This document shows, piece by piece, positions 290 through 62,913 of a DNA stretch of 64,000 nucleotides (within the stretch, counting starts at the first letter, position 1; every line of letters begins with the position of its first letter). The translations under genes and the position numbers were made by a program. The DNA comes from Roridomyces roridus. Taxonomy: Eukaryota; Basidiomycota; Agaricomycetes; Agaricales; Mycenaceae. The stretch is from contig JARKIF010000001.1 of the NCBI GenBank assembly GCA_029378245.1, positions 434,001 through 498,000 of the forward strand, given 5' to 3'. The notes under the pieces were generated by a model. It was not told the DNA's origin and did no database searches. It was given only the letters and a program-made list of their open reading frames with translations.

Positions 290-2385
290 CTAGACGAGGG
301 CAACATCGCATGCCGATCGAGATGAAATAGACACGAACACGGGCTCAGGGTTGTCCACCTCCATGTCTCAAGGTTCTTCGTAGCGTGAGTCGGGCGCCCC
401 CCAAATCCAGGCCGAATGCTGTGTTCCGGAAGCCCAGGCCGGATCGTGCGTCTCAACGAGAGGGTGAGATGGTGATTCGGAAACTGCGTCCGGGACATCG
501 TTGCTGCTTGACATGAAATGTGAGTCCGTGTATCGCCAAAAAGGAGAAGGGATACGGACGCTGGTAGTTCCTCAAAGTTTTCATCCCACTGGGGCAGCTG
601 TTCGACACAAAGGTGGCACACGCCCAGGTCTGTAGCTGCAAAAGGGTAGCCATGGCCTAGTGCCCCGCACGAAGTACATGCGACGATGGGCAGCGAGCCC
701 TGATCTGAAAAAGAGCAGAATGAGCAGGAGTATCATACAAGCGCTGCTGGTGCTTACCTACGACTTGGTGACATAACGGGCAGACTTCTTTCGGGTCTGG
801 CGAATCATGCAATACCACCACACTATCCGCCGTCCTCGTCGCAAGTGTTATTTCTTCACGAACGTAACCCGGGCAACGATGTGCGCTCAGCACGTTCGTC
901 CATGCGAGTTTGTGGATAGGCGTCCGCCTGACGTTGAGATCGCGATGAATCTGAGCAGCAACGGTAGCCAACGACTGCTGCGTCTCCATCGTTCGCCAGA
1001 CGTACTCCCGCCGGGGAGGGACTGAGGGGACTTGCTCGTCCATGTCAGCTTGTCCTTCCACGGTGGCAAAAGATTGTTCTAGAGGCGGGGACCCAGTCAC
1101 CCACGTTGGCAGGGACGAGGGATTGAAAACCACGGGCGTCCTCTCGATATCGTCGTCTGGAGCCGATTAGTGAGTAACTGACCTACGAGTATAAGAAATG
1201 GACCGACCGTGTAAAACACGATTGGCGGACTTCAGGATCTTGAAATGAGTTTAGATAACGATCGGCAGAGTATGAATGTCCTGCACCTTCTGACATAGAG
1301 CATTGAGCAATGCCCAGCCTGAATTGTCGCGATGTGTAGGTACCATCGCATTCGATGGTGGATTGATGCTGAGCAGGAATCGGTCGTTCACGTCGAGGAA
1401 TACATCAAAGTCCTTACAAAAGTCAGACCAAAGGGATCACACATAAAGGAGGGCACTCACTTCGGCACTCAGATGAATAGATGTATCCTGTACCTTGAGA
1501 TAGTTGATTCCAGACTGAGAGAAGTTTAGCAGAGGAAACGGAAAGGGCAGTGAGACGCATACGGAAAGCCCAGCGACCTATCGCACAGTGAGATGAGAGA
1601 GGATCAGGCGAACAAGCTACACACCAGCTTGAATCCCAACACGATGCTTCCGTCAAGACCATCCCTGAGAGCCCCAGCAAGAGGTACTTCCGCGGTTTTC
1701 CAATAAGCTGGCATCCGGTCAGTGGCAGGACGAGAGGATGGAGAGCGAGGACATTACCATCCTCATACGCTATGAATTGAATTGGTGAAGTCGAAGAAGA
1801 TGTCCCGTGGATCCGCAGCACATTGGGGTGGCTACAAAGATGTAGATGGTGTTCTCCCCACTGGTCTTAGATACTTACAACGATCCTTTCGACAGTGCGA
1901 CCGTCGCCTCCAAATGCTATTCGCTTCATCAGCAGATGGGGCGTATGTCCTGGAGAATTTACAGACCTCACGAGCCCTCGCCCCCGCGTTAAAGACCTTG
2001 ACTATAACAGCTCTGTCCTTGTATTGGCCTGCGTGGAAGAGATAGCCAGGGCCGCTGCTCATCTCGTGCATAAGATTGAGGTCCCTCTGTCGGATGACCT
2101 GTTTCGTTGAGACAGTCATCTCGGTGCAGCACGTCTTCACGAACCTCAAGAGCATCTTCCTCCTCCTCTCGCATCCGTTTGCGTGCCGGTTCTTCCCAAT
2201 CACCCGCGGCGTCTGCAGCCACGATTAGCATTCTCTACGCGACAAGAGATACAAGGAAACTGACCTCCAGCCCCGACCTCTTCCCGTTGTCGTTTCGCGC
2301 CGTGATAAATGTTGAGGTTGCCTTGGATGTTGTTGTACGTGCCTCCACCCAGCGTAACGCCAGTGCCGTTGGCGATGAAGGCCAT
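290..2385 (-). CDS. Cassette gene copy 1 (pseudokinase-PHD protein, tail shared with copy 3)
   Basis: Member of the local cassette family. The ATG at 2385 opens MAFIANGTGVTLGGG, the family's N-terminal motif; exon 1 ends at a GTCAGT donor near 2264. Exon 2 carries a basic EEPARKRMRE stretch (candidate NLS). The kinase-like N-lobe (about 2110-1965) keeps the GPGYLFHAG loop and the VIVKVFNAG strand with the VAIK-type lysine. The linker block PPRREYVWRTMETQQ lies at about 1030-960 and the PHD-like cysteines at about 780-600. The tail resembles that of copy 3 (VDNPEP and PSHPLVET blocks), but in the best-matching frame a TGA replaces the CAA codon of copy 3 (about 370) and the blocks are in a different order. 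The 3' end is therefore uncertain; I close the gene at a TAG at 290. Function unknown; a nuclear signalling or adaptor role is inferred. Confidence 0.6.
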
Positions 2386-2674
2386 CGGGGTGAACGGCGA
2401 GGAAGGGGAGAGGAAAGAGCTGTGTTCAAGTTCCCAGGCATAGGCTGTTGCAATCTATTCCAAAAAGTGCGGAAGGTTGCAGGTGCTGAATCGTGCGAAG
2501 ACGTCCATTGTCAACAGCATGTCAAAGACCTCTGCGAAATTCATGATCAGGCCTGAGGGTGTATCGAGTGGGGGCCGAAGTTAGGTGTTGATTAGTGTCT
2601 GTCCTGTTTCCCCACTTTCCCGATCCGGCGTTCTATGCTAATACTACCTATGTGAGTACCTGCCATACCAACAG

Positions 2675-5024
2675 CTATGAGACTGCCGCACGAGCAAGCC
2701 CCTCCCGATGCCACACCAAATCCTCCTCAGTCACCCCAAGCTCCCAATCCAGGACATCAAGAAACTCCCTTTCCACCCTCCCCACATCGCGCTTGCCAAA
2801 AACACCTGTACATAACATAACGCCCAATGCACATTCTTGAAGCTCGAATTGTGGTTGATGTACTTGTCGGCGCAGACCAGAGCACCCAAAAACACGCGCT
2901 CGAGGGCCCACTCTTCGTGCACGATGGAGAGGTGCGGGAGTGCGCGGGATACGTAGGCGAGAGCGACGAGGAGAGTGGGAGTCTTGACTTCCGCGCGCAG
3001 GAGGACGTTGGTAACGAATCCAGCGAACGTTTCGAGTATTAGGCTTCGCGCGCCAGACCAAGGGCGCCCCAATCCGGCTTCAGCTACCTCGGCTACGCGG
3101 TCGACAATGTATGATATAGCGCTGTCCCAATGGAACGACTTGTCGGATACGAACGCATCCGGATGGTAAGACCATCCAAAACTGCTTCCCGAGGAAGCCG
3201 AGCCCGTATTCGGCAGAGCGCAGAAATCGCAAATGAAGTTATCCGGTCTGCCAACACAATCGCGATGACTCCAGAAGTTGCACGATTTACACTTGACAGT
3301 GTGACGCCAACCGGCATCTGCAAGATGATGAGTTAAGCAGCAAAAAAACTAAGCTAAACTCACTTGGAAGACCACAAATGCAGCGGAAACCGTCTGTAGA
3401 GCCCTGGACTTGGTGGCAGATCGGGCACACCTCCTGGAGAGCAGGCGTATCATGAAACACCACTGCACTATCAACCGTTCTCGTCGCGAGTGTTATTTCT
3501 TCACGAACGTATCCCGGGCAACGGTGGATTGGTTGCGCGTCGATTAGAGCAAATCTGCGAATCGCCGTCCGCCTAAGGTCGAGGTCTCTATTGATCTGTG
3601 TGGCAATAGTGGCAAGCGATTGCTGTAGTTCCACCGTCCGCCACACGTACTCCCTCCGCGGCGGAATTGGACGCGAGGTTTCCTCATGAAATTGTGGAAA
3701 GACGATCGGTCGGTCGATTCTCGAGGGACTCGGACCTTGTGTCTCGACCAGCGTCCGCCGAGCTTCAGGGTTCCTTGACAGTGAACTGTCGACAGGGATC
3801 CTTTCGATGTCCTCATCTAAGCCAGTTAGATAGGGTACGCCAGGATGGAGGGCCGACTCACCATGCAATACGCGATTAGCGGATCGCAGTACCTGGACGA
3901 GGAGTCAGCGTCGAAGGAAAGGAAAGAAAAGGAGAAGACGTGCTTTTTGACACAATGCGTTGAATATTTTCCAAGCGTCGGTGCCGTCTTGTTGCAGTGA
4001 GGCGTCGGTGTCCATTGATGGATTAATGCAGAATAAAAACCGATCGTTAACATCGAGAAAGACGTCAAAGCTCTGCCGTCTTCAGACAAAGCCGCTACGG
4101 AAGAGGATGGAATGTACCTCTACTTTTGACGGTACCGCTAGACCCTGTACAGCGAGGTAGTTTATCCCAGCCTGAAGAGGATTAGCGCATCAGACAACAC
4201 CTCAGATAGGATACATACAGAGAGCCCAGCGATCTAGAATATAATGAGAAAAGAAGGCAGTGACGAATAAGTGGACACACCAGCTTGAAACCCAATACGA
4301 TGCTCTTCTCCAGATCCTCCTGGAGAGCCACGGCCAAGGGACCTTCCGCGGTCTTCCAATAAGCTGAGCCACAATGAGACATACGAGTACGATTCAGGCA
4401 AGGATCTCACCGTTCTCATACGCTATAACATGATTCAAGGAAGTCGACGAGGAGACGCCCGCAATGCGCAATACGTTGGGGTGCCTGCAGATTCGTGAGG
4501 GCGCCGTCCACATGCTCTTGATTCGCACTCACAACAATCCTCTCGAGAGCGCCACGGTCGCCTCCAGGTGCTTCGAAACGCCATTGAGCCGCAAAGAAAG
4601 AAACGCGCAGTATACCACATACCTCACGCGCATTCGCCTCTGCATTAAACACCTTCACGATGACCGCTCGACCCTTGACTTCGCCTGCATGGAGAAGGTA
4701 GCCCGGGCCACTACCTATCTCGAAGGCGAGGTTAAGATTCTTGTTTCGGATGATCTGCGTTCTTTCAATACATGAGCTCGAATGCGAAAGCTTTCACAGA
4801 CCTTCAGACCATCTTGCTCCTCCTCTCTTCTCAATCCCCGCGTTACATCCGGGGCGTCTGTAAACCACCAAATTTAGACTGTGCAATTAAAACGCCTTGT
4901 TATGAAGGAAAGACTCACCCCGTATCCGCCCCGCCGCGCCGTTGTATATAACGAGATTCCCATGGATATTGTTGAACGTTCCTTCACCCAGCGTGAATCC
5001 GCTCGCATTCGAGATGAACGCCAT
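2675..5024 (-). CDS. Cassette gene copy 2: pseudokinase-PHD fused to a cyclin box (frameshifted near its end)
   Basis: The ATG at 5024 starts MAFISNASGFTLGEG. The kinase-like N-lobe is at about 4750-4620, the VPPRREYVWRT-type linker at about 3700-3640, and the PHD second half (KCKSCNFWSHRDC, ICDFC) at 3290-3220. Without any intron or stop the same frame runs on into a PCL/Pho80-type cyclin box, with LLVALAYVSRALPHLSI, WALERVFLGALVCADKYIN and SSFKNVHWALC at about 2990-2820. At 2810-2819 the five bases ACATA are present twice. The second copy shifts the frame, so the conserved remainder of the box (GVFGKRDVGRVEREFLDVLD, about 2805-2745) is in another frame that closes with TAG at 2675, while the shifted frame stops near 2731. 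Cyclins of this class bind and activate Pho85-like CDKs; here the last part of the box would be lost unless the duplication is a sequencing error. Confidence 0.72.
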
Positions 5025-5598: not shown

Positions 5599-7968
5599 CT
5601 ATAGACTAGCATGCGGCAACGAAGGCGGACTAAATGAGGGCAACACCGCATACCGAACCTCGGGTGTCGGGTCAAGGCTGGCAATGGCTGCATTCTCCGG
5701 GCTCCAATGCGGCGACTGAATGAGATAAGAGCCACCGATGCACGTAGTGTAAGGGACGTATGGGAATAAATTGGTTATCGGGTGTCCTGGAGGTGGGTAG
5801 GAGAAGGAACGAGGCGCAATCCACGGGGAATGGCGCGGTTCGGGGGCCCGCCAAGCCCAGTCGTAATCTTCAGTCTCAACAAGGCTTCGGGATGGTGAAT
5901 CAGGAACTGGCTCAGCAGCAAGCTCGTAGCTAACATGAAATGTAAGTTTTGTGTATCTCCAAGTTGAAGATGAAAGAGATACATACAAGGGCTCAGGGTT
6001 ATCCACCTCCATGTCTTGAGGTTCGTCGTAGTTGCCATACTGAGATGGATCCGATACATCTGTATTGGGCTCTATGAACAACGGCGGCGGGCTAGGCAGC
6101 TTTTTGACGCAAAGGTGACACAGGTCCAGGGATACGCTCGCGCCCGCAAGACAGACGTTATGGCTCAATGCACCACACATTGAACACTTGGACGTGATTA
6201 GCCAGCCCGGATCTGAAAAAGGGTATGATAAGCAAAAGTATGGGAAACAGCTACTGGCCATGGTGCTTACCCGAATCCCCGCAAACACATCGAAAGAAAT
6301 CCACCGCAGCCACGATAACAACTTGATGGCATATTGGGCACACTTCTTGCGGATCCGGCGAATCATGCGATACCACCGCACTATCCGCCGTCCTGGTCGT
6401 CAGCGTGATCTCTTCGCGAACATAACCGGGACAACGATGTGCGCTCTGCGCGTTTGTCCATGTGAGTTTGTGGATAGGCGTCCTTCTGACGTCGAGATCG
6501 CGATGAATCTGGGCAGCAACGGTAGCCAACGACTGCTGTGTCTCCATCGTTCGCCAGACGTACTCCCGCCGGGGAGGGACTGAGGGGACATCCTCGTCCA
6601 TGTCAGCTCGTTCTTCCACAGTGGCGAAGGATTGTTCTAAAGGCGTTGTTGAGGAACCTGTCACTGACGTTGGCAGGGACGAGGGATTGAAAACAACGGG
6701 CGTCCTCTCAATATCGTCGTCTGGGGCGGGTTAGTGAGTAACTGAGCTGTGATCATTGGAAAGAGACCGACCATGTAAGACACGATTAGCGGACCTGAAG
6801 ACCTTGAAAAGAGTTCAGATAACGAGCAGAAGGCCATGAAAGACCCGCACCTTCTGACAGAGAGCATTGAGTAAGACCCAGCCTGAATTGTCGCGGTGTG
6901 TGGGTACCATCGCATTCGATGGTGGATTGATGCTGAGCAGGAATCGATCGTTCACGTCGAGGAATACATCAAAGTCCTTCCGAAAGTCAGACCAAAGGGA
7001 TCACACGCAAAGGAGGGCACTCACTTCGGCCCTCAGGACAATAGATGTATCCTGTACGTTGAGATAGTTGATTCCAGACTGAGAGAAGTTTAGCAGAGGG
7101 AACGGAAAGGGCAGTGAGACGCATACGGAAAGCCCAGCGACCTATCGCAGAGTGAGATGGAGAGGATCAGGCGACCAAGCTACGCACCAGCTTAAATCCC
7201 AACACGATGCTTCTGTCAAGACCATCCCTGAGAGCCCCAGCAAGAGGTCCTTCCGCGGTTTTCCAATAAGCTGACAATACGATCATTCTCAGAACAAGCA
7301 CGGACAGTAAGGGCATTACCATCTTCATACGTTATGAATTGACTTGAAGAAGTCGGGGAGGAGGACCCTCGAATCCGCAGCACATTGGGGTGCCTGGAGA
7401 GATGTAGATGGCGTTCCTCCCACTTGGCTGGTATACTCACAGCAGCCCTTTCGAGAGTGCGACCGTTGCCTCCAGGTGCTATATTGGGTTTATCAGCAGA
7501 TGAAGACGTGTGCACTGGAGAATTCACACACCTCACGAGCCCTCGCCCCCGCGTTGAAGACCTTGACTATAACAGCTCTGTCCTTGTATTCGCCTGCGTG
7601 GAAGAGGTAGCCAGGGCCGCTGCACATCTCGTGGATGAGATTGAGGTCCCGGTGTCGGATGATCTGCCCCATTCGCTCAGACGGTGCATATATATGTGCT
7701 GCGAGTCTTCACGAACCTCAAGCCCATCTTCCTCATCCTCTCGCATCCGTTTGCGAGCTGGTTCTCTCCAGTCAAGCTGGTCCGTATTATCTGGAGCCAG
7801 CATGATTCAGCGTCCTCTTCCTTGACAATAGATACGAGGAAACTCGCCCCCATGCCCGACCTGTTCTCGTTGTCGTTTCGCGCCTTGGTAGATGTTAAGG
7901 TTGCCTTGGATGTTGGTGTACGTGCCGCCACCCAGCGTGACGCCAGTACCGTTCGCGATGAAAGCCAT
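5599..7968 (-). CDS. Cassette gene copy 3 (pseudokinase-PHD with Pro/Tyr-rich tail)
   Basis: The ATG at 7968 starts MAFIANGTGVTLGGGTYTN, closest to copy 1. The exon 1 donor appears to be GC (GCGAGT) where copy 1 has GT. Exon 2 holds EPARKRMREDEEDG, and an intron of about 48 nt (GTGAAG...CAG, branch-like CTGAGC) precedes the kinase-like exon, which reads IIRHRDLNLIHEM and VIVKVFNAGARAREV. The linker block VPPRREYVWRTMETQQ lies at about 6580-6530. The PHD-like finger (CPLC, CVCG, then CSMC, H, C, CHLC) ends at 6108. It is less canonical than in other copies because the Trp before the His is absent. The tail of about 165 residues is rich in Pro, Ser and Tyr and matches no domain I recognise. It is open to the TAG at 5599, so copy 3 looks intact where copy 1 looks damaged. 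Confidence 0.65.
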
Positions 7969-18943: not shown

Positions 18944-18950
18944 AGCACTT

Positions 18951-19296
18951 GGCCCGGCGATTAACTTTAGAATGATCACTGCTCGACCCTTGATTTCGTC
19001 CGCACGAAGATACCCGGGACCGCTGTCTATCTCAAGTGTGAGACTGAGGTGCTTGTCTCGAAGAATCTATTGCCGTTTGAGTGAGATTCCACAATTTGGG
19101 AGCCGGGAACCGATACGCACCTCCAGCTCCAGAGAATCTGAAAACGAAAGCATCAGAGTCCTGCACTCGACATAGCTGAAAGCCGACCTCCGCGCGTTAC
19201 TCGCCCTTGGTTGATTATGTTCACCAGATTCCCGTGTACATTGGTGTATGTGCCGCCACTAAGAGTGACTCCACTACAGTTGGATATGAGTGCCAT
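18951..19296 (-). pseudogene. Cassette gene copy 4, 5' fragment broken by the 3.4-kb transposon
   Basis: The ATG at 19296 starts MALISNCSGVTLSGGTYTN, the cassette N-terminal motif. The kinase-like N-lobe follows (ILRDKHLSLTLEIDSGPGYL, then KGRAVII). The frame is cut at 18951 by the transposon's target duplication. On the far side of the element, the reverse strand below 15549 continues with the expected codons for the end of this exon and then a GTGAGC donor, so the element inserted within this exon. Beyond that donor, next to the paladin-like gene start, I find no further cassette exons; the rest of the copy was probably lost before or after insertion. Confidence 0.78.
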
Positions 19297-29063: not shown

Positions 29064-29096
29064 CCCCTTTACTCGAACACTCGACCGAACGAAACG

Positions 29097-34426: not shown

Positions 34427-34462
34427 GCACTTCGGGACGCAGCGCTTGAACGGAGGGGATAA

Positions 34463-35194: not shown

Positions 35195-35230
35195 GCGCTT
35201 CGGGACGCAGCGCTTGAACGGGGGGGATAC

Positions 35231-35591: not shown

Positions 35592-35779
35592 CAGATGGAC
35601 AAACTCAATAAATTGGATGCCACAGACTGAAGGCCCCACTTACATGCCCTGGGAAAAATGCACAATACAGGGTGCATCCCTACCTATCAGACCCCAGTAG
35701 TATGGCGCTTCATCTCCATCTAAGCTCATTGTATAAATTGATCTTCCATGGGCGGTCCGGATAGGGGTTTCCCACTGTA

Positions 35780-39984: not shown

Positions 39985-41000
39985 TTATTGAACTCCTAGA
40001 TAGATGTCTGGCAAACTTCGGTGCTCGGCCTGGTAACGTCGTCTTTCCGAGTCCTCGTATACCGGTGGAAGCTGGTTCGGCTGGCGAGTATCCGCAGTCT
40101 GCTTTCTTGAATTATCAGCCAGCCGCCTTGACGCGACTTCGACTTTTCTTCGCCACAGTCCTGGCACTTTCCTTCTGTACCTCCTGCTTTTGTATGTCCA
40201 CGCATGTTCGACATGTGGTATCACACGGAATAGGAGCACAACCACTATGGCTCCAAGACTTGCATACTTACGCGACATTTGACTGTAGGCCGCGCGCGAA
40301 CCTGGATCTGCCAAAAACAAAGCGATGATAAATGATAAACGAATATCCAACACAGCGGCGAGATTGATTTCACATACTCGGTTCGCCGCAGATAAACGAA
40401 AAGACCTCCCCGAAGTCACAACCTCATGGAAGACGGAACACACTTCCTGGATGGCAGGCGCATCGTCAGTTACGACAGACAGCACTATCCGTCGGCCGCG
40501 TCGCAGCTGTAATTTCTTCCCGAACATATCCCGGGCAGAGGTGCATACTTCCACCATCGCTCCAAACCAGCCGGTAAGTGGATGCCCGGCGCAGGTCAAG
40601 ATCTCGAGTGATTTGGGCAACGGTTGTGGCACATCCGTTGTTCGTCAGAGGTACTCCCGGCGGGGCGGTACTGAATTTCAGAAAGATTCTTCTCCCTCGG
40701 TATGGTATGTGTTGTAACTCTGTCCCACGAAGGCAGCGATGAGGGTTCCACCAGCGATGGAGAGCCCGGCGCAGTGTCGAAAACAGGGGTCCGTTCAATA
40801 TCCATTATATCCTCATCTGGTGGTTAAGCGCGTCTTTGGTAATCTTTCCAACATTCAAGGAAACAGCATACCATGCAATACGCGATTGGCCGACCTCAGA
40901 ACCTAGACGACCAAGTTGAGGGTTTCGGAACCGAAATATTACTGAACTGACCTTTTGACATAGTGCATTTAAGTCTCAAATGGTACAAGTATCTTCCTCT
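39985..41000 (-). pseudogene. Cassette gene copy 6, decayed 3' half
   Basis: Only the second half of the cassette is recognisable: the NALCQ / LRSANRVLHG exons (about 40990-40880), a DIERTPVFDT linker, a frame-shifted remnant of the arginine-rich block (ITRDLDLRRASTYRL), and AIQEVCSVFHEVV where the PHD-region CSVC has become CSVF. Frames change repeatedly and the N-terminal motif and N-lobe are missing. It lies head-to-head with copy 7. Confidence 0.75.
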
Positions 41001-46329: not shown

Positions 46330-47101
46330 ATTGGTCGCAGATGATGCCTACTCGTGCAGGTCGGCAGGACCTCGCACCACTTTTTTACGATTTTGGGTTT
46401 CTTTCAAGCATGCATAACAACATCCAATCCACTTACAAGCAGAACAATTGTCCAATACATACGATACACACGAATTTTTCCTTACTCTTACAGAGCTGTA
46501 GCAACCGACCGTCCAAGTCTCTATGTCCGTGTGTAATTTGTTGTAGGGATATGAATACGGATTGACTTGAAACGAATGGGAGAACGGCGCGAAATCGGGT
46601 GCTACGGTATCATGCCATTGGGTGGGTATAGTGGGATAGCAAGATGGGAACGGGAACGGGAACGGGATGAGGGTAAAACACGGGGTATATAGGGAATCAT
46701 ATTCATCTACGGATGGCGACAAAAGATCGGTGTGTGGCGGGAAATCATGATACCTTCGCCGCCGAGCGTGGACCTCGCAGGGCAATCTTTCGCCGCCGAG
46801 TGTAGACTTCAGGGTAATGCGCAGGCCATGGCCCATCGCATCTGGAGACACCACTGAGTCGATAAGATAGGCCTGGACGCCTGGATCCCGATTCACTCTG
46901 ATGCATGATGAATGACTCGGGTCGGGTGCCATTCAAAGCCCTTGCCCTTGAGTTAAGACGCCTATGGCAGCCTGGAGCGGGTACTCCTCGTCCAATCGCC
47001 ACAAGTAGTTAAGCGCCACTGTTCAAGGACCCAGACTCTCACGAGCCCTACTAGAGGGAGTCGTATGAAATCAGTCGGAAGCATAGTAATGCGGGGAGAA
47101 T
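46330..47101. other. Convergent spacer between the hypothetical gene and copy 8
   Basis: No gene seen. The first part (CAAGCATGCATAAC, CCAATCCACTTACAAGCA) recurs after the second (51600 onward) and third (56500 onward) hypothetical copies, marking the 3' part of the duplicated unit. Confidence 0.45.
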
Positions 47102-50100
47102 TCATACCTTCGAGCTTCCATCCTGCGAAGAGCATTTCGCCTTGTGGCGCTTCAAGACATGCGCAGTCCCAAACTGCTCACCACAGCCGCACTCGAAGTT
47201 CTTGATAACCAGGTGCGAGTTCATATGGTTAGTCAGATTGTGCTTGGCCGTGAAATCGTGCCCGCACACGTTGCAGATGAAGGCCCCGATCTTGAAGGGA
47301 TCCTTGCGCCGGGCAGTGGACGCACGGACTTTTGCGTCCGTCCCGACTTGAGCACGAATCGGCTGCGAGCTCATCGGGCCCTCCGGCGACATTTGACCGT
47401 CCCAGAGACCCGAGGCGTCATCGGCCTGTCCTTGCCCATCAGCCTTGCGATGCTGGGGCGGGTAGGGGCTCCGCTCCTTGCGACGGGGTTGTACTTTACG
47501 AATGCCGCCACTGATGACGGTAACAGAAGGTGCGTGCTCAGTGCCGGCGTTATGGATGTCGTTGGCTTCCAACTCCGTAGGAGCTGCTGCCGGGCGGGGT
47601 ATCGGCGACAAGGACGAGGAAACCTGAGCGGACACCCTCCAGGCTTCTTCCAAATCAGTCTGAGGACCCTGCGGGGTGACAGAGGGGCCCTCATAGCCCG
47701 CCTGCCCATCGAGAGACCCAAAATCCTGAGGAATGAGCCGGCCCATGTACGATTCATCGTGGATGTGAGTGGGGTACGGCACATCCGGCTGCGGCGTTTC
47801 CTCGATAGACTGAGCATCCAAGTTCCTGTCTATGCCATTGACCGACGGGTCGATGGACAGGAATCGTCTGGGCGACCCTCCTCTGTGAGTGGATCTCTGG
47901 CGGCTGGGGGAGACGATCATAGGGTTCGGTAGCTGCAAGTAGCTGGGCGTGCCAGGGGACACTGGGGCGGCCGATGAGGTCTCCGATCCCGCTAAAGAGG
48001 CGGGAGAGTGAGGGGAAGGGCTTGGAGGCGACGCCGGGAAGTATTGGCTGGGCTGCCACCCGGACTCAAGGAGCTCGGGTGTTGTGTCCACACGGAGATT
48101 GCGTGGCCAATGGGGCGAAAGAAACTCGGGGCTGAACGGCACGGGAGAAGGCATGGGCTCCTGGAGGCGCAGCTGACCGTAAGAAGGACGAGTGGGAGGA
48201 AGGGGTTCGTCGCAGTCGTCGTCCTTGAGGGCGGACCCGGAGGCATCAAACGGATTGTGGGGCAAGTGACTCATTCCTGGGAACGACACACTGTCTGATT
48301 GAGCCTGGGGACGCAACTGAACCCGATAGAAGGAGCTCGTCTCCTGCCCGAAGCTTTGCGACCGGATGGCGGTAATCGAGGCAGCGTCATCCCAGTCCAC
48401 GACTTCGTTCTCTCGATGCCTTTAGCAGGGTCAGTAACCACGCCTTCGAGAGAGAAGGGTTACCAACGGTGGAGAATCCTCGATGTTGAACGTGAAGTCG
48501 CCATCCTCCTCGGCGGTGCTTGGAGCAATGCTCGAACCTGTTGTATGGTGCTCAGACAAGTGATACTGCTGGTTTTGCATGGTGCAAAAGTAACAAATAG
48601 ACTCGTTCGGAGTGGGGCCACAGTCCCTGTGACTCCATTTCTTGCACGAGCGACATTTGACCGTGGGGCGCGACCCTGGTTCTAGACAGGAACAGAGATA
48701 AGGGGTCATGTCGCACGGCTGCTAGGTTTTGCCTACCTTCTTGTCTGCAAACACAACGGAAAACCTCTCCCGAATTCACCACCTCGTGGCAGATGGAGCA
48801 CACCTCCTGGATAGTGGGCGCATCGTGTGATACGACGGCACTATCTGCCGTCCTGATCGCCAGCGTTACTTCTTCCCGAATGTATCCCGGGCATCGGTGA
48901 ATGCTCCCGCCATTGCTCGAAACGAGCCTATTAATGGACATGCAACGTAGGTCAAGATCTCGAGTGATTTGAGCGGCGATGGTAGCCAAGGACTGCGGCA
49001 GATCCATCATTCGCCAGACGAATTCTCTACGAGGGGGCACTGCCGCGGCATTCTGGCGATTATTTGGGATAGCTTCTTCGTTTTGTAGGGTGGCTTGATC
49101 CTGCGACGCCACCGGCGAGGGTTCCAAGATCGCTGGTGAGTGAGAGGAATCGAAAACGGTGGGTTTCCTTTCAATATCCTCATCTTTACGGTGAGGTAAG
49201 CAAGATGATTTGGCCTTCGGGGGAGACATACCGTGTAATACGCGATTGGCCGACCTCAAAACCTGCACACGAAAGGTCGGCGCTCATCGAGGAAGATATC
49301 GCAGGCAGCACTAGCACTGACCTTTTGACACAATCCGTTGAACAAGGTCCAGACGTTTGTCTCGTCTTCTTGTTCGCGCTGCGTTGTATTAGCATCGGTT
49401 GGTGGATTGACGTTGAGTAGGAATCGGTCGTTGATATCGAGGAAGACGTCAAACCTCTGCGTTGGACTGAGACAAAGGAAGACAAGCCCAAAATAGCCAT
49501 ACCTCGGGTCCCCGGGGGAGCGTGACGCCTAGGGTACTCAGATAATACATTCCCGACTGCGAAAGGGGAATAAGCATGACAGTGAGAAGAAGGACAGCTT
49601 TCCTACAGAGAGGTCCGAGATCTGGTATGCGGTGAGACAATAAAAATGGAACCGACCAAAACCTACAAACCATTTTGAATCCGAGCATAATGCTCTTGTC
49701 GAGATCTTCCTTCAGGGCCGCGGCGAGTGGCCCTTCCGCTGTTTTCCCTTGGGCTAAAAAAACTCAGTTGTACACCACGATATGCGAGGTGAGGTCGGTG
49801 CCATCTTCATACGCTATAAAGCGATGTACGGACGTCGGAGCCGAGATCCCTTCGATTCGTAGCACATTGGGATGCCTAAAAAACTGTTCATGCTGTAAAC
49901 TCAAGTGCCCGTTTTTCTCCTCACAATAATCCCCGCGAGAGGCTCACAGCGGCTTGCCAGTGCTTTCCGAGCCATTTCAGATTCAAATCGAGAAGGGCAC
50001 AGTATGACACACCTTGCGGGCATTCGTTCCTGCGTTAAAAACCTTCACTATGACCGCCCGAAGCTTGATGTTGCCTGCGTGAAGGTGATAGCCAGGTCCG

Positions 50101-50523
50101 CAGCCTATCTGGTGGGTCAGTCTGAGGTCCTTGTATCGGACGACCTGCTCCATGCGTTGAGATAGTGCATTCCCGATTCCCAAGCTTCACGAACCTCCAG
50201 CCCATCATCCTCCTCCGTGTCCTCTCGTCCCCGCGCAGGTTCTGCCAAGGGTTTCAGTTCCCGCTCTCCGGACGACCAAGCGACTCACCTTCCACAACTG
50301 TCGACTCCTCCCTCCGCCGCCATTTGTCTCCTAACAGCGACTGCAGCAGTGCTAGCGGAAGCTTCTGTTACTGTACCTGGGCTGATATTAACGAGCAATA
50401 CTCACCTCCGATATCTCCGACTGGTTGGCCCTCAGGCTGGAAGATGTTCACGAGGGGCCCGTGCACATTGTTGAACGTGCCTTCTCCCAGAGTGAATCCA
50501 CTGGCGCTCGAGATGAACGACAT
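47102..50523 (-). CDS. Cassette gene copy 8: pseudokinase-PHD fused to a C2H2 zinc-finger transcription-factor region
   Basis: The ATG at 50523 starts MSFISSASGFTLGEGTFNNV. The N-lobe (VVRYKDLRLTHQIGCGPGY), linker (VPPRREFVWRMMDLPQSLAT, about 49050-48990) and PHD (CSIC, CVC, CRSC, WSHRDC, CYFC, ending 48583) match the family. After a short acidic exon, a 48-nt intron (48420-48467; GTTGGT, CTGAC, AAAG) joins in frame to a long Pro/Ser-rich exon of about 430 codons. It ends in two zinc fingers: FICNVCGHDFTAKHNLTNH plus MNSH (C2H2) and ECGCGEQFGTAHVLKRHKAKC, which is C-x-C...H-x3-C. This finger pair and the long disordered region resemble basidiomycete C2H2 transcription factors. TGA is at 47102-47104; a GTATGA next to it could be a donor. 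Nuclear DNA binding is inferred. Confidence 0.8.
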
Positions 50524-52708: not shown

Positions 52709-54893
52709 TCATCGTCTAAACGGATTATTGTGGGTCCTGAACGGATTCTGGCTCCGCAATCGACGGGATGCGGCCTTGTCCACGGTCGGCAGCGCAGGCG
52801 CTTCCTCGCTGGTATCGATAGCACCAGCGTCATGAGGTGCCATGGCCGGTCGTCTTTGGGCGTCTTGCATGTCCTCGCTGTCAGCTGGGGCAGACGGGTC
52901 GATGTTGGAAATAGCAATGCCGTGGTCTTGAGCGGAAGTCCTTGAAAAGCAAAAGGCGCATAGAGAATCATTAGAAGCGGGGGCACAGTCCCTGTGACTC
53001 CACGACTTGCATAAGCGACATTTGGCCGTGGGACCCAACCCGGGTTCTAGAAAGGGACAAGATAAGGGGCATATCGCACGACAGCTCGACTGTGCTTACC
53101 CTTTTTTCCGCAAATACAATGGAAAACCTCTCCTGAGTTCACAACCTCGTGGCATACCGAGCACACCTCCTGGATAGTGGGCGCATCGTGTGATACGACG
53201 GCACTATCTGCCGTCCTGATCGCCAGCGTTACTTCCTCCCGGATGTATCCCGCACATCTGTGAATGCTCCCGCCATCGCTCGAAACGAGCCTGTGAATGG
53301 ACACGCGACGCAGGTCGAGATCTCGAGTGATTTGAGCGGCAATGGTGGCCAAGGACTGCGGCAGATCCATCATTCGCCAGACGAATTCCCTACGAGGGGG
53401 CACCGCGGTGACATTCTGGTGATTATTTGGGATAGCTTCTTCGTTTTGTAGGGTGGCTTGATCCTGCGATGCCACCGGCGTGGGCTCCAAGATTGCTGGC
53501 GAGTGAGAGGAATCGAAAACGGTGGGTTTCCTTTCAATATCCTCATCTTTACGGAGAGGTAAGCAAGATGATTTGGCCTTGGGGGGAGACATACCATGCA
53601 ATACGCGATTGGCCAACCTCAAAACCTGGAGACGAAAGGTCAGCGCTCATCGAGGAAGATATTGCCAGCAGCACTGACCTTTTGGCACAATCCGTTGAAC
53701 AAGGTCCAGACGTTTGTCTCGTCTTCTTGTTCGCGCTGCGTTGTATTAGCATCGGTTGGTGGATTTACGTTGAGCAGGAATCGGTCGTTGATATCGAGGA
53801 AGACGTCAAAGCTCTGTGTCAGATTGAGACGAAGAAGACAAGCTTAAAGATAGCCATACCTCGGGTCCCTGCGGAAGGGTGATGCCTTGAGTACTCAGAT
53901 AATCCATTCCCGACTTTGGAGATATTAGCATGGCGGTAAGAAGAGGGACAGCTCTCTCACAGAGAGGTCCGAGATCTGGTAACCGGTCAGGCAATGAAAA
54001 TGGATACGATCAAAGACATGGACCATTTTGAATCCGAGCATGATGCTCTTTTCAAGATCTTCCCTGAGGGCGACGGCGAGTGGCCCTTCCGCTGTCTTCC
54101 GATGGGCTAGCAAACGATCAGTTGTGCAGCACACTACTTGTGAAGTGAGGACGGTACCATCTTCATACGCTACAAAGTGATGTATGGACGTTGGAGCCGA
54201 GGTGCCTTCGATTCTTAGCACATTGGGATGCCTGGAAAACCATCATGCTGTGAACTAAAAGGTCTGTTTTGTTGCTCACAGTAGTCGTCGCGAGAGGTTC
54301 ACAGCGGCTTCCCAGTGCTTTTTGAGTCATTTCAGATTCAAATCGAGAAGGGCACAGTATGACACACCTTGCGGGCATTCTTTCCTGCGTTAAAAACCTT
54401 CACGATGACCGCCCGAAGCTTGATGTTGCCTGTGTGAAGGTGATAGCCAGGTCCGCGGCCTATCTCGCGGGTCAGTCTGAGGTCCTTGTATCGGACGACC
54501 TGCTCCATTCGTTCAGATGTGGTATATCCATGTGCCGCGGGTCTTCACGAACCTCCAGCCCATCTTCCTCCTCCGTTTCCTCTCGTCTCTGCGCAGGTTC
54601 TACCCAGGGGTTTGAGTTTCCGTTATCTGGAGGTCGATCGTGACGTCACCTTCTACACCTGCCGAGTCCTCTCGTCGCCGTCGTTTGTCCTCAAGAAGCG
54701 ACTGCAGGAGACCTGGCGTGTCGAGCCGAACGCATGAGTCTGTGTCCTTCGTCTGGCATCCACGGGAAAACTCACTACCGATGTCTGCTGATGCCAGGTT
54801 CCCAGCCTGGAATATGTTCACGAAGTCCCCCTGAATATTATTGAAAGTGCCTTCGCGCAGGGTGATTCCACTGGCATTCGAGATGAATGACAT
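52709..54893 (-). CDS. Cassette gene copy 9 (pseudokinase-PHD with a short tail)
   Basis: The ATG at 54893 starts MSFISNASGITLREGTFNNI; exon 1 ends at a perfect GTGAGT donor. The N-lobe lies at about 54500-54370, HPNVLRIEGTSAPT at about 54230, and the C-lobe-like exons (RKTAEGPLAVALREDLEKSI; GMDYLSTQGITLP; FDVF) at 54110-53800. The linker (VPPRREFVWRMMDLPQSLAT) and PHD (CSVC, CICG, CRLC, WSHRDC, CAFC) end at 52948. The tail is only about 79 residues, acidic then basic (DSEDMQDAQRRPAM, RRLRSQNPFRTHNNPFRR), with no known domain. A splice into another frame (DDEENEEDKKKERR, about 52720-52680) cannot be excluded. Confidence 0.72.
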
Positions 54894-56730: not shown

Positions 56731-59700
56731 TCACCCTTGCCGTCCCAGTCCTTCCGAGTGTGTGCTGCGCACCACGCCGGTATCCACCGTTTCCAGCATA
56801 GCTCTCCTTTTGTTTCGCAGGCCGAGGTCACGCAGACGATCGCGGTCATACTTCAGCGAGAGCTAGACACAGTCAAAATTAGGCAAGAAGAGGATGATAA
56901 AGCGCTGACCTTCCGGAGTCTCTCACGATCAGTGTCGCGGTCACGACTACGCGGAGACTGGTGTTTGAAGCTTCCCATTTGAGCAGCTGGGGACGGTTCG
57001 GACCGGAACGGCTGTTGGGGGCTGGGGCGGGCGTCGGGGAAGACGGCGTAGAAGCGCTCGTCATCAACGCCGTGGACGGCAGGCATACCCGCAAGTCCGA
57101 GTTGACTGAGATTAACGGGGTCAAAGTAGGATTCTCTGAAGAAGCTGGAGCCACCGCTGGTGTCAGAGATGTCACGTCCCCGCGTGGTCAAAAAATCCTG
57201 CACAGCGGCCAACTCCTCTGGTGTGCGAATATCGAGAGAGACGGAGCGGGGATTCAAGGGAGTGGGCTCATGTCGGTACGAGTGAAGCCGTTCCGCCATA
57301 CGGGGATTATATGACGGGCCGACCCGGCGTTTCTTCATGTCGGTAAAGAACTCCTCGACAGTAAAGTCATCACCGTGAGCACGCTTGGAGCCGGTAGCAG
57401 TGGTATCCCAAGGCTGATGGGGCATGAAGATTTCGTCCGTTGGGGAGCGGCGATCTGAGGGAGGGGTGGGAGGAAAGTCAAGGCTGATGTCGGTATACTG
57501 CTCACTCTGCCTCTGCCTCTCATCCTCATCACCGCCCCAAGCTCTCATCGCAGCAGCAAACGTATCTGGGTCCAACATCGGACTCCCGCTCCTGCTCCTT
57601 GGCATTCGTCGCTGTGCTGACGAACTCGTGCCTGGGAGTCCGTCGTCGTCGTCAGGATGGAAATAATCGGGTTCGAGATTGGGGTTGGCGGAGATGTAGG
57701 GCGAGCTGTACGGTGAGGATGGGTAGGCGTACGGTGTGGATGGGTAGACGGGGCCCGGGTCTATTCCCTGGTATGGACTGACAGAACCACCGGGACCGTA
57801 GGCAGTGTAATCGTTGACCGTGGGCACGCAGAGGTGGCATAAGAATTCGCTGATATTCCGAACGCACTGGCGATGACTCCAGAACTTGCAGGATTGACAC
57901 TTGACCGTGGGGCGCCAGCCGGGATCTGTAAAAGAATGAGGAGGTGCGGCAAAAAAACTAGTCTTGGCCTACATACATGCATCCCCACAAATGCAACGGA
58001 GCACGGCTCCCGAGTCCACGATTTCGTGGCATACCAAGCAAACCTCCTGGATAGTGGGCGCATCGTGCGAGACGACAGCACTATCTGCCGTCCGTGTTGC
58101 TAGTGTCACTTCCTCCCGAATGTATCCCGGGCAGCGGTGTATGCTTCCAGTGTCCCTCCCAGTCAGTCGATTGATGGACGCGCGGCGCAGGTCGAGATCT
58201 CTAGATATTTGGGTGGCAATGCTGGCCAATGACTGTGGCACGTCCATCGTTCGCCAGACGTATTCCCGTCGAGGCGGTACTGGCGATACCTCCTCGCGAT
58301 CGGTTGGGATGGTTTCTGCGTTTTCTACGATGGCTTGGTCCGACGAAGGCACCGGGGAAGATTTCGAGATCGGCGGCGAACGAGGAGAAGAGTCGAAAAC
58401 AGTAGGTATCCTTTCAATATCCTCATCTGTCCGGTAGAGTAAGTAAGACGATTTGCAGCATTGGAATGAGCCATACCGTGTAATAGGCGATTGGCCGACC
58501 TCAAGACCTACACACGAAACGTCAGCGTTTCAAGCAAGCCGTCATGCGGTAGCCTGACCTTTTGACACAATGCGTTAAACAAGGTCCAGACGCTTCGTGT
58601 GTCGTCTTGTTCTTGGTCTTCTGCTGGTGGATTGATGCTCAGCAGAAATCGGTCGCTGATATCCAGAAAGACGTCAAAGTTCTGTTGGATTGAGACAAAG
58701 GAGTGCGAACATAAAGATGACAATACCTCGGGTCCCAGCGGCAGAGCGACGCCTTGCGTATTCAGATAATTTATTCCCGACTGCAGAGGGGAATCAGTCC
58801 GGGGAATGGAAAAGGGGTGGGTTCCCTACAGAGAGGCTAGAAATCTGGGATCCCGTGAGGAACAGAAGACAGACACGACCAAGAACACGAGCCATTTTGA
58901 ATCCAAGCACAATACTCTTGTCAAGATCGTCCCTCAGGGCCGCGGCGAGTGGACCTTCTGCTGTCCTCCGTTGGGCTAGCAAATGATTAGTTCTACAGCA
59001 CGGCCTGCGAAGTGAGGACGGTATGTACCATCCTCATTATCATATGCGATAAAGTGATGTATGGACGTCGGGGAAGACACCGCTTCGATTCGTAGCACAT
59101 TGGGATGCCTGCAAAACCGATCATGCTCGAGATCAAAGTGCCTTTTTTTCCCCTCACAATAATCTTTGAGAGAGGTTTACGGTGGCTTCCAAGTGCTTTC
59201 CGAGTCACTTGAGTCAAGTCGAGAAGGGCATAGTGCTATGACACACCTTGCGGGCACTCGTTCCTGCGTTAAAAACCTTCACGATGACCGCCCGACGCTT
59301 GATGTTGCCCGCGTGAAGGAGATAACCAGGTCCACCGCCTATCTCATGAGTGAGATCGAGGTCCTTGTGTCGGATGACCTACTCCTTTGGCTGAGACAGT
59401 GCATCTATGTGTTGCGGGTCTTTACGAACCTCCAGCTCATCTTCCTCCGCATTCTGTCGCCTCCGTTTCCGCGCAGGTTCTACCAAGGGTTTCAGCTCCC
59501 GCTCTCAGGAGGATCAAGACAAATTCACCTTCAGTATTAGTCGAGTCCTCGCTCCGCCGCCGTTTGTCTCCCAGAAGCGACCCCAGAAGAGCTAGTCATC
59601 GAGCCAAAAGCGTCAGTCCACGTTGCTGCTCTGAGGTTAACGAGAAACTCTCACCTCCGATGTTCGCTCCGAGTCGTTGGCCCTCATGGAAATACATATT

Positions 59701-59775
59701 CACGAGATTCCCCTGCACATTGTTGAAAGTACCTTCGCCTAGGGTGATTCCACTGGCGTTCGAGATGAATGACAT
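56731..59775 (-). CDS. Cassette gene copy 10: pseudokinase-PHD fused to a nuclear-regulator-like disordered region
   Basis: The ATG at 59775 starts MSFISNASGITLGEGTFNNV. Exon 2 has an EEPARKRRR-type NLS. N-lobe, DRFLLSINPPAEDQ, linker (VPPRREYVWRTMDVPQSLAS, about 58280-58220) and PHD (CLVC, CICG, CQSC, WSHRQC, CHLC ending 57828) match the family. The PHD frame runs on for about 320 codons: a Tyr/Pro/Ser-rich part (YPSTPYAYPSSPYSSPYIS), then KRAHGDDFTVEEFFTDMKKR, NPRMAERLHSY, NPRSVSLDIRTPEELAAVQD and SYFDPVNLSQLGLAGMP. These blocks look like a conserved basidiomycete nuclear protein, but I cannot name it. An intron (GTCAGC...GTCTAG) leads to a basic last exon (LRDLGLRNKRRAML) with TGA at 56731. 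Confidence 0.76.
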
Positions 59776-60400: not shown

Positions 60401-60526
60401 TGCCGATCAAAACCCCAATGTTTTGACGTATCTAGCTGATGCTGCGCACATTCCTGGGACGGCGGGGAGTCGGGAAACCGACGTCATCATTCCAGGCGAA
60501 CGCCGTTGGAATTAAAACATCAGTAC

Positions 60527-62913
60527 TCAGTGTTCGGACTGGACATCAGTTTCAGGAACCCAGTTGGCCTGGTGTTCGAGTCAGACACCAAGCGATGGAA
60601 AGTATGTACGGATTCAGACTTACCCAAGACTCGCGACGCCGGTTAAAGTCGGGCACCCCACCCACGGTGCCAATATCAGAGTAGTAGGCACTCGTTGCAG
60701 CGGAGTCGGCAGCGATAGCGCTAAAGCGAGATTGATACGACGCAGAGCCATCGTCGGTGTCGGTATCGTCGCGGGGGAACGTGAAGCCACTAAAGTCGAC
60801 AGGAGAATCAGGCCCGCTGTCGAGCGGCACGGAGGGCATCCCAAACGTGAAGCCGGGTACGGGGAGAGGACCAGGGACGGGCACGGCAATCTTGCGCGGG
60901 GAAATGCGGGACTGATCCTGGAGCGAGGCAAGGATAGCATGGTGGCGTGAAAGCGGGGAATGTGATGGGCAAGGGGGAAAACAAGATCCGTTCGAAGAAA
61001 GACCACAGTCCCTGTGACTCCATGACTTGCAGAATCGACATTTGACCGTTGGGCGCGAACCGGGTTCTGGGAAAGAAATAAGGGGATATGTCGCACGGCA
61101 GCTCTACTGTGTCGTACCCCTTTCTCCGCAAACACAACGGAAAACCTCCCCCGAAGTCACAATCTCGTGGCAGACGGAGCACACCTCCTGGATGGTGGGT
61201 GCATTATACGACACGACTGCGCTATCTGCCGTCCTGGTCGCGAGCGTTACTTCCTCCCGAACGTATCCCGGGCATCGGTGTATGCTCCCGCCATCGCTCG
61301 AAACGAGCCTATGGATGGACGCGCAACGCAGGTCGAGATCTCGAGTGATTTGAGGGGCAATGGTAGCCAAGGATTGTGGCATTGCCATCGCTCGCCATAC
61401 GAATTCCCGCCGAGGCGGTACTGGGGGTGACTTTGGGGCAGCTTCTTCTTCATTTCGTAGGATGGCTTGGCCCGGGGCAGGTACCGCAAAGGGTCCCAAA
61501 ATCTCTGCTGGGCGAGGAGAAGAGTCGAAAACGGCAGGGGTCCTTTCAATATCCTCATCTGTACGGTTAAGTGAACTGAGGTGTTTCATCAGCATCGGAA
61601 ACGCCGCACCATGCAATAGGCGATTGGCCGACCTCAGGACCTAGACAGGAAAGGTGAGTACTCGTCGGTCAAGCCATTTTATGAGCTGGACTCACCTTTT
61701 GGCACAATGCGTTGAATAAATCCCAGACGCTGCGTGCCGCAGTGCGTGTATCTTCCTCTGCCGTATTAGGGTCCAGTGGTGGATTGATGCCGAGCAGAAA
61801 TCGGTCACCGATGTCGAGGAAGACGTCAAAGCTCTGTGCCGGATTGAGCCAAATGGAGACGAGCAAAGGAAGGTCATACCTCGAGCGGAATGGTGATGCC
61901 TTGTGTACTCAGATAATCTATTCCCGACTTGGGAGGGATTAGCATGGGTATGGTAAACGGCAGGGTTCCGTACGGAGAGACTCGAAATCTGACATGTGAT
62001 GAGCCTAACAAGAGGAATACGACCAAAACACAAACCAATTTAAATCCCAGCAGAATGCCCTTGTCAAGATCCTCCTTAAGGGCCGCAGCAAGTGGGCCCT
62101 CCGCTGTCTTCCGATGGGCTAGCGAACGATCAGTTGTATACCACGACCTGCGAAGTGAGGACGGCACCATCTTCATAGGCGATAAAGTGATGTATGGACG
62201 TCGGAGCCGAGGTCCCTTCGATTCGCAGCACATTAGGATGCCTAGAAAACCGTCCATGCTGGGAGCTACAGTGCTTGTCTGTTCCTCACAATAGTCTTCG
62301 CGAGAGATTTGCAGTGACTTCAAAGTGCTTTCCAAATCATTTCAGAATCAAGTCGAGAAGGGCATATGTAGTATGACACACCTTACGGGCATTCGTTCCT
62401 GCGTTAAAAACCTTCACAATGACCGCCCGACGTTTCATGTTGCCCGCGTGGAGAAGATAGCCAGGTCCGCGGCCTATCTCGTGGGTGAGATTGAGGTCCT
62501 TGTATCGGACGACCTGCTCCATTCGTTAAGATACCGCATATGCATGTGCTGCCGGTCTTCACGAACCTCCGGCCCATCCTCCTCCGCATTCTCTCGCCTC
62601 CTTTTCCGCGCAGGTTCTGCCAATTTCAGTTGCCGCTTTCCGGAAAGGCTAAGACGAAATCACCTTCCGCATCTGTCGATTCCTCTCTCCGCCGTCGTTT
62701 TTCTCCTAGAAGCGACTCCAGAAGAGCTACCCATCGATCCGGAAGTGTCAGTCCACATCGCTGCGCTGATTTTAACGAGAAATACCGTGACCCACCTCCG
62801 ATGTCTACTCGTGCCAGGTTCTCAGCCTGGAATATGTTCACAAGATCCCCCTGGATATTGTTGAAAGTGCCTTCGCGCAGGGTGATTCCACTGGCGTTCG
62901 AGATGAATGACAT
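60527..62913 (-). CDS. Cassette gene copy 11: pseudokinase-PHD with a regulatory-type tail
   Basis: The ATG at 62913 starts MSFISNASGITLREGTFNNI. Exon 2 has two basic clusters (EKRRRREE, EPARKRRRE), an intron with branch CTTAAC and acceptor CAG precedes VVRYKDLNLTHEIGRGPGYL, and VIVKVFNAGTNARK ends the N-lobe exon. Linker VPPRREFVWRAMAMPQSLAT is at about 61420-61360. The PHD (CSVC, CVCG, CRFC, WSHRDC) ends with CFPPC (C-x3-C rather than C-x2-C) at about 60969. The same frame continues into SQDQSRISPRK-like sequence, GFTFGMPSVPLDSGPDSPVD and SYQSRFSAIAADSAATSAYY, resembling disordered parts of basidiomycete transcription regulators. A GTAAGT donor, CTGAC branch and CAG acceptor lead to the last exon (ANWVPETDVQSEH) with TGA at 60527. 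Confidence 0.78.

Follow-up and report, generated by a model that had tools for sequence, protein, structure and literature searches.

A Mycenaceae gene family with a pseudokinase-PHD platform and varied, often host-derived C-termini, possibly encoding intracellular decoy receptors

The analyzed window, a 64-kb stretch of Roridomyces roridus DNA, contains a family of genes which share one platform, consisting of a short N-terminal motif, a truncated TK-like pseudokinase, a linker and a PHD finger. Spliced alignment located this platform at eleven places (Table 1), so that the eleven-fold cassette of the original prediction is right as a number of places but not of genes. Nine copies appear intact (A, B, C, D, F, G, H, I and J), one is a pseudogene (E) and one is a fragment (K). 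Splicing of the window DNA gives five published proteins residue for residue, while copy A is not covered by any of the published models mapped. The PHD finger of copy A is degenerate, as its model has neither the CxCG pair nor the cysteine after the histidine. The spliced alignment also shows one stop in copy A, one in copy C and one frame jump in copy I, all within the linker; those of copies C and I correspond to a small intron in the published models.

Table 1. Copies of the platform in the 64-kb window (positions counted from the first nucleotide of the window)
Copy	Position	Strand	Features	Basis
A	607..2385	-	Platform with degenerate PHD; tail frame open to 72	Spliced alignment, tail frame
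B	2734..5024	-	Platform with cyclin-like tail (2734-3219; weak assignment), tail in the PHD exon	Published P0008 reproduced 585/585
C	5602..7968	-	Platform with tail 5602-6108	Spliced alignment; allele P0012 (544 aa), 521 residues identical
K	18949..19296	-	Fragment with N-terminal motif and beginning of the kinase N-lobe	Motif score 58.2 at 19293
D	36754..39420	-	Platform with IME2/MAK-type kinase tail (charged helix)	P0001 reproduced 688/688
E	40190..40969	-	Decayed pseudogene without N-terminal half	Six frameshifts and one stop (spliced alignment)
F	41503..43639	+	Platform with acidic tail (43365-43639)	Spliced alignment, tail frame
G	47042..50523	-	Platform, one intron, then C2H2 module (47108-48419)	Published P0141 reproduced 923/923
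H	52712..54893	-	Platform with short 79-aa tail	Spliced alignment; allele P0002 503/524 identical
I	56734..59775	-	Platform with host-gene tail; captured DNA about 57082-57478	P0137 reproduced 796/796
J	60530..62913	-	Platform with homeodomain transcription factor piece	P0003 reproduced 569/569

The copies of the window belong to a 350-kb cluster with about 31 platform places, which is accompanied by a second haplotype. Three further copies of the cluster, at C1:512, 519 and 523 kb, look disrupted, with split exon matches and in one case a stop. Carriage of the cassette by a mobile element is unsupported: the Ty3-type element at 29043-34423 stands between the copies and not inside any of them.

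The kinase-like part of the platform gives weak matches in Pfam and PDB, and its nearest PDB kinases are mostly tyrosine kinases. A position table of up to 150 aligned hits, in which the HRD and DFG columns were set by eye, shows that the lysine is kept in 138 of 144, whereas the HRD and DFG aspartates are mostly lost; next to the DFG place, 13 of 148 aligned hits have an aspartate. A normal activation loop is missing as well. With both catalytic aspartates mostly lost, this part is predicted to be a pseudokinase. The PHD finger, apart from its degenerate form in copy A, can be assigned from its C4-H-C3 zinc pattern and from PDB profile matches to SHPRH (E 1.4e-6) and ASH1L (E 1.8e-6), which are its nearest relatives together with MLL5. 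For the window copies no Pfam family reaches the cut-off in the platform, PHD matches included, while relatives of the platform reach PK_Tyr_Ser-Thr with E 5.7e-7 and PHD_5 with E 7.9e-5. No Pfam match to NB-ARC or NACHT was obtained in 92 of the 120 listed relatives at E 0.001, nor in two platform models and the tail ORFs of the window at E 1. A second kinase domain was not found; the window models and the Pfam results show one kinase region, the Pfam family tables for the relatives listing members and not domain counts. Basic, NLS-like stretches were seen in the sequences by eye.

The end of the PHD finger lies at 3220, 6109, 37480, 43364, 48584, 52949, 57828 and 60969, in agreement with the original prediction, and at 607 in copy A. 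DNA similarity among the copies mostly ends at these positions, with short stretches of likeness beyond them in the pairs A/C (142 bp), C/J (74 bp) and H/I (178 bp at 71%), and the capture junctions are sharp in the genomic DNA. Joining of neighbouring genes by annotation would produce false fusions, but in copies B, C, D, H, I and J the PHD and the start of the tail lie within one exon (for C and H, as mapped by allele proteins), which rules this out at the DNA level for these six. The spliced DNA agrees in every residue, tails included, with five published proteins, namely P0008 (B), P0001 (D), P0141 (G), P0137 (I) and P0003 (J). For copy G an annotation error is unlikely, since P0140 on the contig of the other haplotype is fused in the same way. 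Reading on from the last PHD cysteine, at least 50 open codons were found in 38 of 42 loci, among which alleles are not independent; random DNA would give about 9%.

For seven of the eight tails searched, the genome contains a relative at another place, not joined to any platform hit. The exception is the tail of copy C, which matches only itself and the other haplotype. The captured DNA of copy D (36836-37349) is 93% and 91% identical in two blocks to C491:1767025-1767625, the donor being a meiosis kinase of the IME2/MAK type, whose tail was copied. In copy J the captured DNA (60542-60982) begins at the last PHD cysteines and matches a donor at C112:1725137 (71% amino acid and 77% nucleotide identity), which has a homeodomain exon. 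The tail of copy I has relatives on contigs C491 and C440, with 86% nucleotide identity over 419 columns, and another captured tail is a MAPKKK-like piece with 88-91% nucleotide identity to its relative elsewhere. The charged helix (D), the regulator pieces (I and J) and the short tail (H) of the original prediction are present. Its cyclin box in copy B and C2H2 fingers in copy G are matched below the cut-off. The tail of copy B has 51 matches in the genome, itself and its allele included, but reaches Pfam Cyclin_N only with E 0.026 and has no PDB sequence match, so that it may at most be called cyclin-like. Copy G has one C2H2 finger (E 8.7e-5 in the ORF, 0.0021 in P0141), and its C2H2 module has relatives elsewhere in the genome. 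A predicted phosphatase fusion is unsupported: the scan of ORFs gave a single phosphatase-like domain (12372-13109), which stands about 5.8 kb away from fragment K and is not connected with any copy. In some cases the tail is short or lacks a known domain.

Outside the Mycenaceae, no member of the family was found among 147 distinct proteins listed (best 120 of 177 and best 120 of 185 matches), each search for relatives having scored 8000 candidates. The listed relatives have no fixed C-terminus. In 92 of 120 listed proteins, chosen for having a tail, the tails include the Pfam families dsRBD, PAH (Sin3-type), SCA7, homeodomain, bZIP, GATA, C2H2 and DUF6699, and 63 tail groups were obtained among 141 tails, alleles and duplicate records counted. 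The same kinds of host protein recur as tails in different species. On a platform tree of 116 of the 120 listed proteins, dsRBD tails (12 changes vs 13.5 shuffled) and PAH tails (6 vs 6.9) are scattered, though slightly more clustered than in most shuffles (the observed value is reached in 16 and 20 of 200), while species do cluster (42 changes vs 86 shuffled). Taken with the relatives of the tails searched, this strongly supports the predicted layout of one platform with varied host-derived C-termini, similar to integrated decoys. In R. roridus the IME2 tail falls together with the IME2 of the species itself (98/95), and the tail of a Mycena latifolia platform protein shares 87-91% identity with IME2 from three further species of Mycena. 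Both the tree and the identities speak for two captures, and M. latifolia has probably captured its IME2 tail independently; a single origin is not rejected by the AU test (p 0.057), in which P0025 forms a long branch of odd composition.

One conserved platform has been expanded in a cluster which differs between haplotypes, and it carries varied C-termini, several of them copied from the regulators of the fungus itself. A role as decoy receptor would fit these observations best, and we tentatively regard the family as intracellular decoy receptors of the Mycenaceae, a reading to which we give slightly less than an even chance. The originally predicted roles in defence, allorecognition or manipulation of the cell cycle are inferences.

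The cluster could also be mostly a non-functional by-product, in which 3' ends are added at random to an unstable tandem array and many of the fusions are subject to drift or decay. The pseudogene and the fragment in the window, the disrupted copies in the cluster and the short tails without a domain would be expected then. Between haplotypes the pooled dN/dS is 0.83 for the tails, a value that would be inflated where tail frames run into introns, and decay would give the same almost unconstrained tails. The pool comprises 12 of 14 allele pairs, without L024/L021 (tail too short) and L037/L080 (28 codons alignable); dN/dS was also computed for the tail pair of copy B but kept out of the pool. 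However, the platform has a dN/dS of 0.17, the frame after the PHD stays open in most loci, similar host proteins recur across species and the Pfam-named tails are nearly all of regulator types, so that we consider a mere by-product improbable.

Another possibility is that the proteins are chimeric regulators, taken to chromatin by the PHD finger, where, in development or the cell cycle, the captured piece competes with its parent regulator as a dominant-negative form or redirects it by rewiring. Most Pfam-named tails are of nuclear or nucleic-acid-binding type, the nearest PHD fingers and the NLS-like stretches would fit, and the tails of D, J, L013 and L015 compared with their donors show dN/dS of 0.23-0.30, which suggests that the copied part is kept, although the donor's own constraint is included in these values. 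On the other hand, a MAPKKK-like piece, presumably cytoplasmic, was captured as well, constraint on the tails is weak between haplotypes, and regulators are seldom found in fast-turnover clusters with presence/absence variation. We regard a regulatory role as rather unlikely.

The N-terminal motif of the platform weakly suggests a link to NACHT genes of the same genome. Short amyloid-like N-terminal motifs with a C-terminal G[DN] pair are described for Agaricomycete NACHT/NB-ARC proteins in PMC9815663, and a profile scan placed a similar motif (M-F-x-N...GG-x-F...G[DN]) upstream of NACHT in L069 and L070. Over 10 NACHT loci (33.6 kb) the scores were 9.5, -0.6, -3.6 and -9.8, of which -0.6 and -3.6 lie in NACHT orientation, so that the motif is correctly oriented upstream of NACHT in only two of the 10 loci; family members score 65-90. 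Controls gave -5.7, -7.6 and -11.3 (64-kb window outside the motif copies) and -10.4 (39 kb of other loci), none of them with an M-F start. A regular expression for the motif found no match in the NACHT loci.

Members of the NACHT class take part in nonself recognition of fungi (PMC12258605, PMC9815663), and the weak resemblance would also suit an allorecognition locus. The cluster would then be a heterokaryon-compatibility locus with different sets of captured tails in the haplotypes, and the platform would react to a mismatched regulator or platform variant from a partner nucleus. Some copies are in fact missing from one haplotype, the tails of D and J have no match on C190, the contig of the other haplotype, and the disrupted-looking copies of the cluster point in the same direction. 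Most allele pairs found have the same tail, however, and the two haplotypes coexist in one assembly, which makes allorecognition an unlikely function.

Decoy integration is among the best-known tricks of plant immunity. In plant NLR-ID proteins host regulatory domains were captured repeatedly, and the loci are clustered and polymorphic. The R. roridus family likewise has a constant part with varied, repeatedly captured host domains in a clustered, polymorphic locus, but it is fungal, without NB-ARC in the Pfam scans, and its scaffold is a pseudokinase with a PHD finger. Tandem kinase and kinase-fusion resistance proteins of plants (e.g. Sr43, WTK1, Pm13) also have a kinase or pseudokinase platform with extra domains, which in some are thought to serve as decoys; here one truncated kinase is followed by a PHD finger. 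Integrated decoys are treated in PMC12258605. The fungus-specific FslK kinases near tyrosine kinases are, according to PMC3937382, an Agaricomycete expansion of TK-like kinases as well, but they are predicted to be active, while the R. roridus family has mostly lost HRD and DFG. From the Agaricomycete NACHT/NB-ARC proteins the platform differs by the missing NACHT or NB-ARC match. Literature searches restricted to open-licence papers brought up nothing similar in fungi that is built on a non-NLR scaffold.

If the family does encode decoy receptors, each captured piece would be a bait for something which attacks, or differs in, the respective regulator, such as a mycovirus, a mycoparasite, a bacterial factor or a nonself partner. 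Whatever happens to the bait may alter the pseudokinase-PHD platform and release the N-terminal motif, which might then nucleate a response, either at chromatin or by way of the signalling network of NACHT proteins. A fungal receptor system without NB domain, with an NLR-type signalling motif and repeated capture of own regulators as baits, is a still more tentative proposal. Most likely, the platform would first have been duplicated and converted locally; new 3' ends would then have been captured by non-homologous joining, at the PHD or behind it, and birth and death of copies would have followed.

Since the donors are still present in the genome, the tails suggest what may be targeted, namely the meiosis kinase IME2, a MAPKKK, a homeodomain factor, Sin3-type PAH domains and SCA7. 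An integrated-decoy system would then have evolved independently in another kingdom, with targets readable from the captured tails, and the question of which threats fungi resist and by what means they perceive them could be turned into a list of testable baits. Both haplotypes occur in one assembly, which offers a natural system for the study of domain capture.

The eleven platform copies in the window (A-K) comprise nine apparently intact ones, the decayed copy E and the N-terminal fragment K, as found by spliced alignment. The platform consists, in this order, of an N-terminal motif (SFISNASGITLGEGTFNNVQGNLVNI in copy D), a basic stretch, a kinase-like part, a linker and a PHD finger, and each model is built from 11 to 15 small exons. 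Splicing of the window DNA yields five published R. roridus proteins with all residues identical, namely P0008 (copy B), P0001 (D), P0141 (G), P0137 (I) and P0003 (J); the window (C1:434001-498000) thus belongs to the published genome of R. roridus, a member of the Mycenaceae. The spliced alignment also shows one stop each in the linkers of A and C and a frame jump in that of I; the published models of C and I have a small intron at the stop and the frame jump, respectively. All platform matches of the window copies to Pfam were below the cut-off. A profile of ten distant members matched, in the PDB, the PHD fingers of SHPRH, ASH1L and MLL5 (E 1.4e-6 to 1.7e-5) and a set of kinases among which tyrosine kinases predominate (E 4.9e-5 at best). 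Aligned family hits retain the beta-3 lysine in 138 of 144 cases but have for the most part lost the aspartates of HRD and DFG. The DFG place, positioned by eye, reads SIN, with an Asp at the last position in 13 of 148.

Platform copies are concentrated on contigs C1 (4,570,463 bases) and C190 (790,909 bases) of the assembly (90.8 Mb, 501 contigs). A 99-residue composite platform piece gave at least 71 exon matches in the genome; all counts of places, for which split exons were joined, are lower bounds. The tail DNA of many C1 and C190 copies, i.e., the piece following the PHD finger, pairs at 87-100% identity in reversed order, and C190 is therefore taken as the other haplotype. The haplotypes vary: the D and J tails, searched in the genome, have no match on C190. 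Such variation might point to allorecognition, which we consider unlikely. In one allele pair (L025/L031), dS is 0.21 for the platform and 0.03 for the tail; gene conversion may have replaced the platform by that of another paralog and spared the tail.

Beyond the last PHD cysteine, at least 50 codons are open in 38 of the 42 loci read, and 39, 26, 21 and 3 in the remaining four. The PHD exon continues without an intron into the tail in B, C, D, H, I and J (allele proteins were used for mapping C and H), and a single intron lies between both parts in G. BLASTP clustering sorted 141 tails, alleles and some duplicated genes included, into 63 groups with 37 singletons. For the Pfam scan (E 0.001), 92 proteins were picked for having a tail from 120 among the matches listed. 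Named tails were dsRBD (9), PAH (5), SCA7 (3), homeodomain, C2H2 and DUF6699 (2 each), bZIP and GATA (1 each); the other tails of the 92 showed no named domain at this threshold. The fusions might act as chimeric regulators, a reading to which we assign a low probability. Among the matches listed, all 147 distinct proteins belong by name to Mycena, Roridomyces or Favolaschia, the latter two being members of the Mycenaceae.

Several tails were captured from host genes. Seven of the eight tails searched in the genome have relatives at sites unjoined to any platform hit of the 99-residue search; for the C tail no relative away from platforms was found. Compared with the DNA of its donor, the gene elsewhere in the genome whose piece the tail resembles, D matches in two sharply bounded blocks (93% and 91%), L013 and L015 at 88-91% across approximately 1.2 kb, I at 86% and J at 77%, the J match beginning with the final PHD cysteines. 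For D, the donor is a complete kinase (Pkinase, 1.2e-41) whose tail occurs in kinases across Agaricomycetes, some annotated as IME2/SME1, CMGC RCK MAK or sporulation kinase pit1, so the piece passed from the kinase to the platform. A homeodomain exon (E 2.8e-9) is present in the J donor, and in the L013 donor gene a protein kinase domain is next in line. The labels MAPKKK, BCK1, Hom2 and PCL are tentative, in part assigned by eye. The 51 cyclin-like matches in one genome seem many. The phytase-domain ORF of the window is perhaps a paladin-like gene.

Features of the window, platform places and relatives of the tails found by genome search
Feature	Location	Strand	Remark
F-box-like gene	window 8397-9563	+	E 1e-8; adjoins copy C
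PTP-like phytase domain	window 12372-13109	-	E 7.2e-18; joined to no platform copy
Ty3-type retroelement	window 29043-34423	+	gag and pol frame with chromodomain
LTR-like repeats	window 34058-35592
Further copies of Ty3-element repeat	window, near 24442-25027 and 28331-29051
Basic, proline-rich ORF	window 45172-46326, 51000-51629, 55558-56472	+	three related copies interspersed with platform copies; no Pfam match
Platform places	C1:300-652 kb		at least 31
Platform places	C190:9-258 kb		at least 27; two remote weak ones more on C190
Stray platform matches	C480, C10, C24		five
Stray platform copies	C480:2558640 and 2561405		~7-10 kb from the cyclin-like member nearest the B tail
Allele pair L025/L031	C1:410512, C190:144817
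B tail relatives	e.g., C1:3.44-3.52 Mb, C480:2.55-2.59 Mb, C212		51 cyclin-like family matches including itself and its allele; nearest other 60%
D tail relative	C491		85%
G tail relatives	C30, C1:396k, C190:158k		the latter two within the cluster region, ~4-5 kb from a platform copy
I tail relatives	C491/C440
J tail relative	C112		71%
L013/L015 tail relatives	C491/C316		92%
L017 tail relatives	C13/C462		56%

P0025, a platform protein of M. latifolia, likewise bears an IME2 tail. This tail shares 87-91% identity with the IME2 proteins of three further Mycena species (P0153, P0157, P0163) and 73% with the D tail, and keeps a stretch absent from D. The tree unites the D tail with the IME2 of R. 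roridus (98/95). Two captures, one in R. roridus and one in M. latifolia, are favoured, short of proof because the P0025 branch is long and unusual in composition and a single origin gave p 0.057 in the AU test. The platform tree unites 22 R. roridus rows, counting alleles, in a single clade (SH-aLRT 100) whose members bear differing tails. The dsRBD tails require 12 changes over 14 rows (13.5 on average after shuffling; no more than 12 in 16 of 200 shuffles) and the PAH tails 6 changes for 7 rows (shuffled 6.9; 20 of 200 as low). Species labels require 42 changes versus 86 after shuffling (lowest shuffle 82).

Pooled across 12 of the 14 allele pairs, dN/dS between haplotypes is 0.17 for the platform and 0.83 for the tail (Fisher on counts, p 6e-8), and 0.17 and 0.59 (p 3e-4) when the two pairs with the most tail changes are removed. 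Individual tails range from 0 to 2.45 between haplotypes; against their donors, the tails of D, J, L013 and L015 show 0.23-0.30, the donor's own constraint included. By these comparisons the platform is conserved and the tails change fast. Fast tail change is compatible with turnover of baits and also with decay. That the fusions are a by-product is, in our view, the least probable reading; a decoy-receptor mechanism fits best, ahead of this one, allorecognition and chimeric regulation, and is preferred tentatively. By analogy, the platform with its captured tails would work like an integrated-decoy receptor. By the features tested, the platform family is neither an NLR nor a tandem kinase.

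Short N-terminal motifs of amyloid-like type that include a C-terminal G[DN] pair have been reported from Agaricomycete NLRs (PMC9815663). A profile of the platform motif, built from 73 family sequences (self scores 65-90), was run on ten NACHT loci. Upstream of NACHT and in the same orientation, L069 contains MFSNSSDFQVHGGTFCQVAGDVHLQ (score -3.6) and L070 MFSNGTQTQIRGGTFYSASGNIHIQ (-0.6); similar motifs in L073 (9.5) and L072 (-9.8) lie on the strand opposite to NACHT, and the remaining six loci have no motif scoring above -12. As controls, those parts of the window that contain no motif copy gave scores of -5.7, -7.6 and -11.3, and 39 kb from other loci gave -10.4; none of these control hits has an M-F start. 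Because of the small margin over controls, the link between motif and NACHT genes is considered a lead. Several platform proteins of M. sanguinolenta (P0081, P0112, P0135, P0136, P0138) have glycine-rich N-termini ending in G-x-GPT/S, and a stretch upstream of an R. roridus NACHT (L075) resembles the glycine-rich N-termini of some platform proteins of this species.
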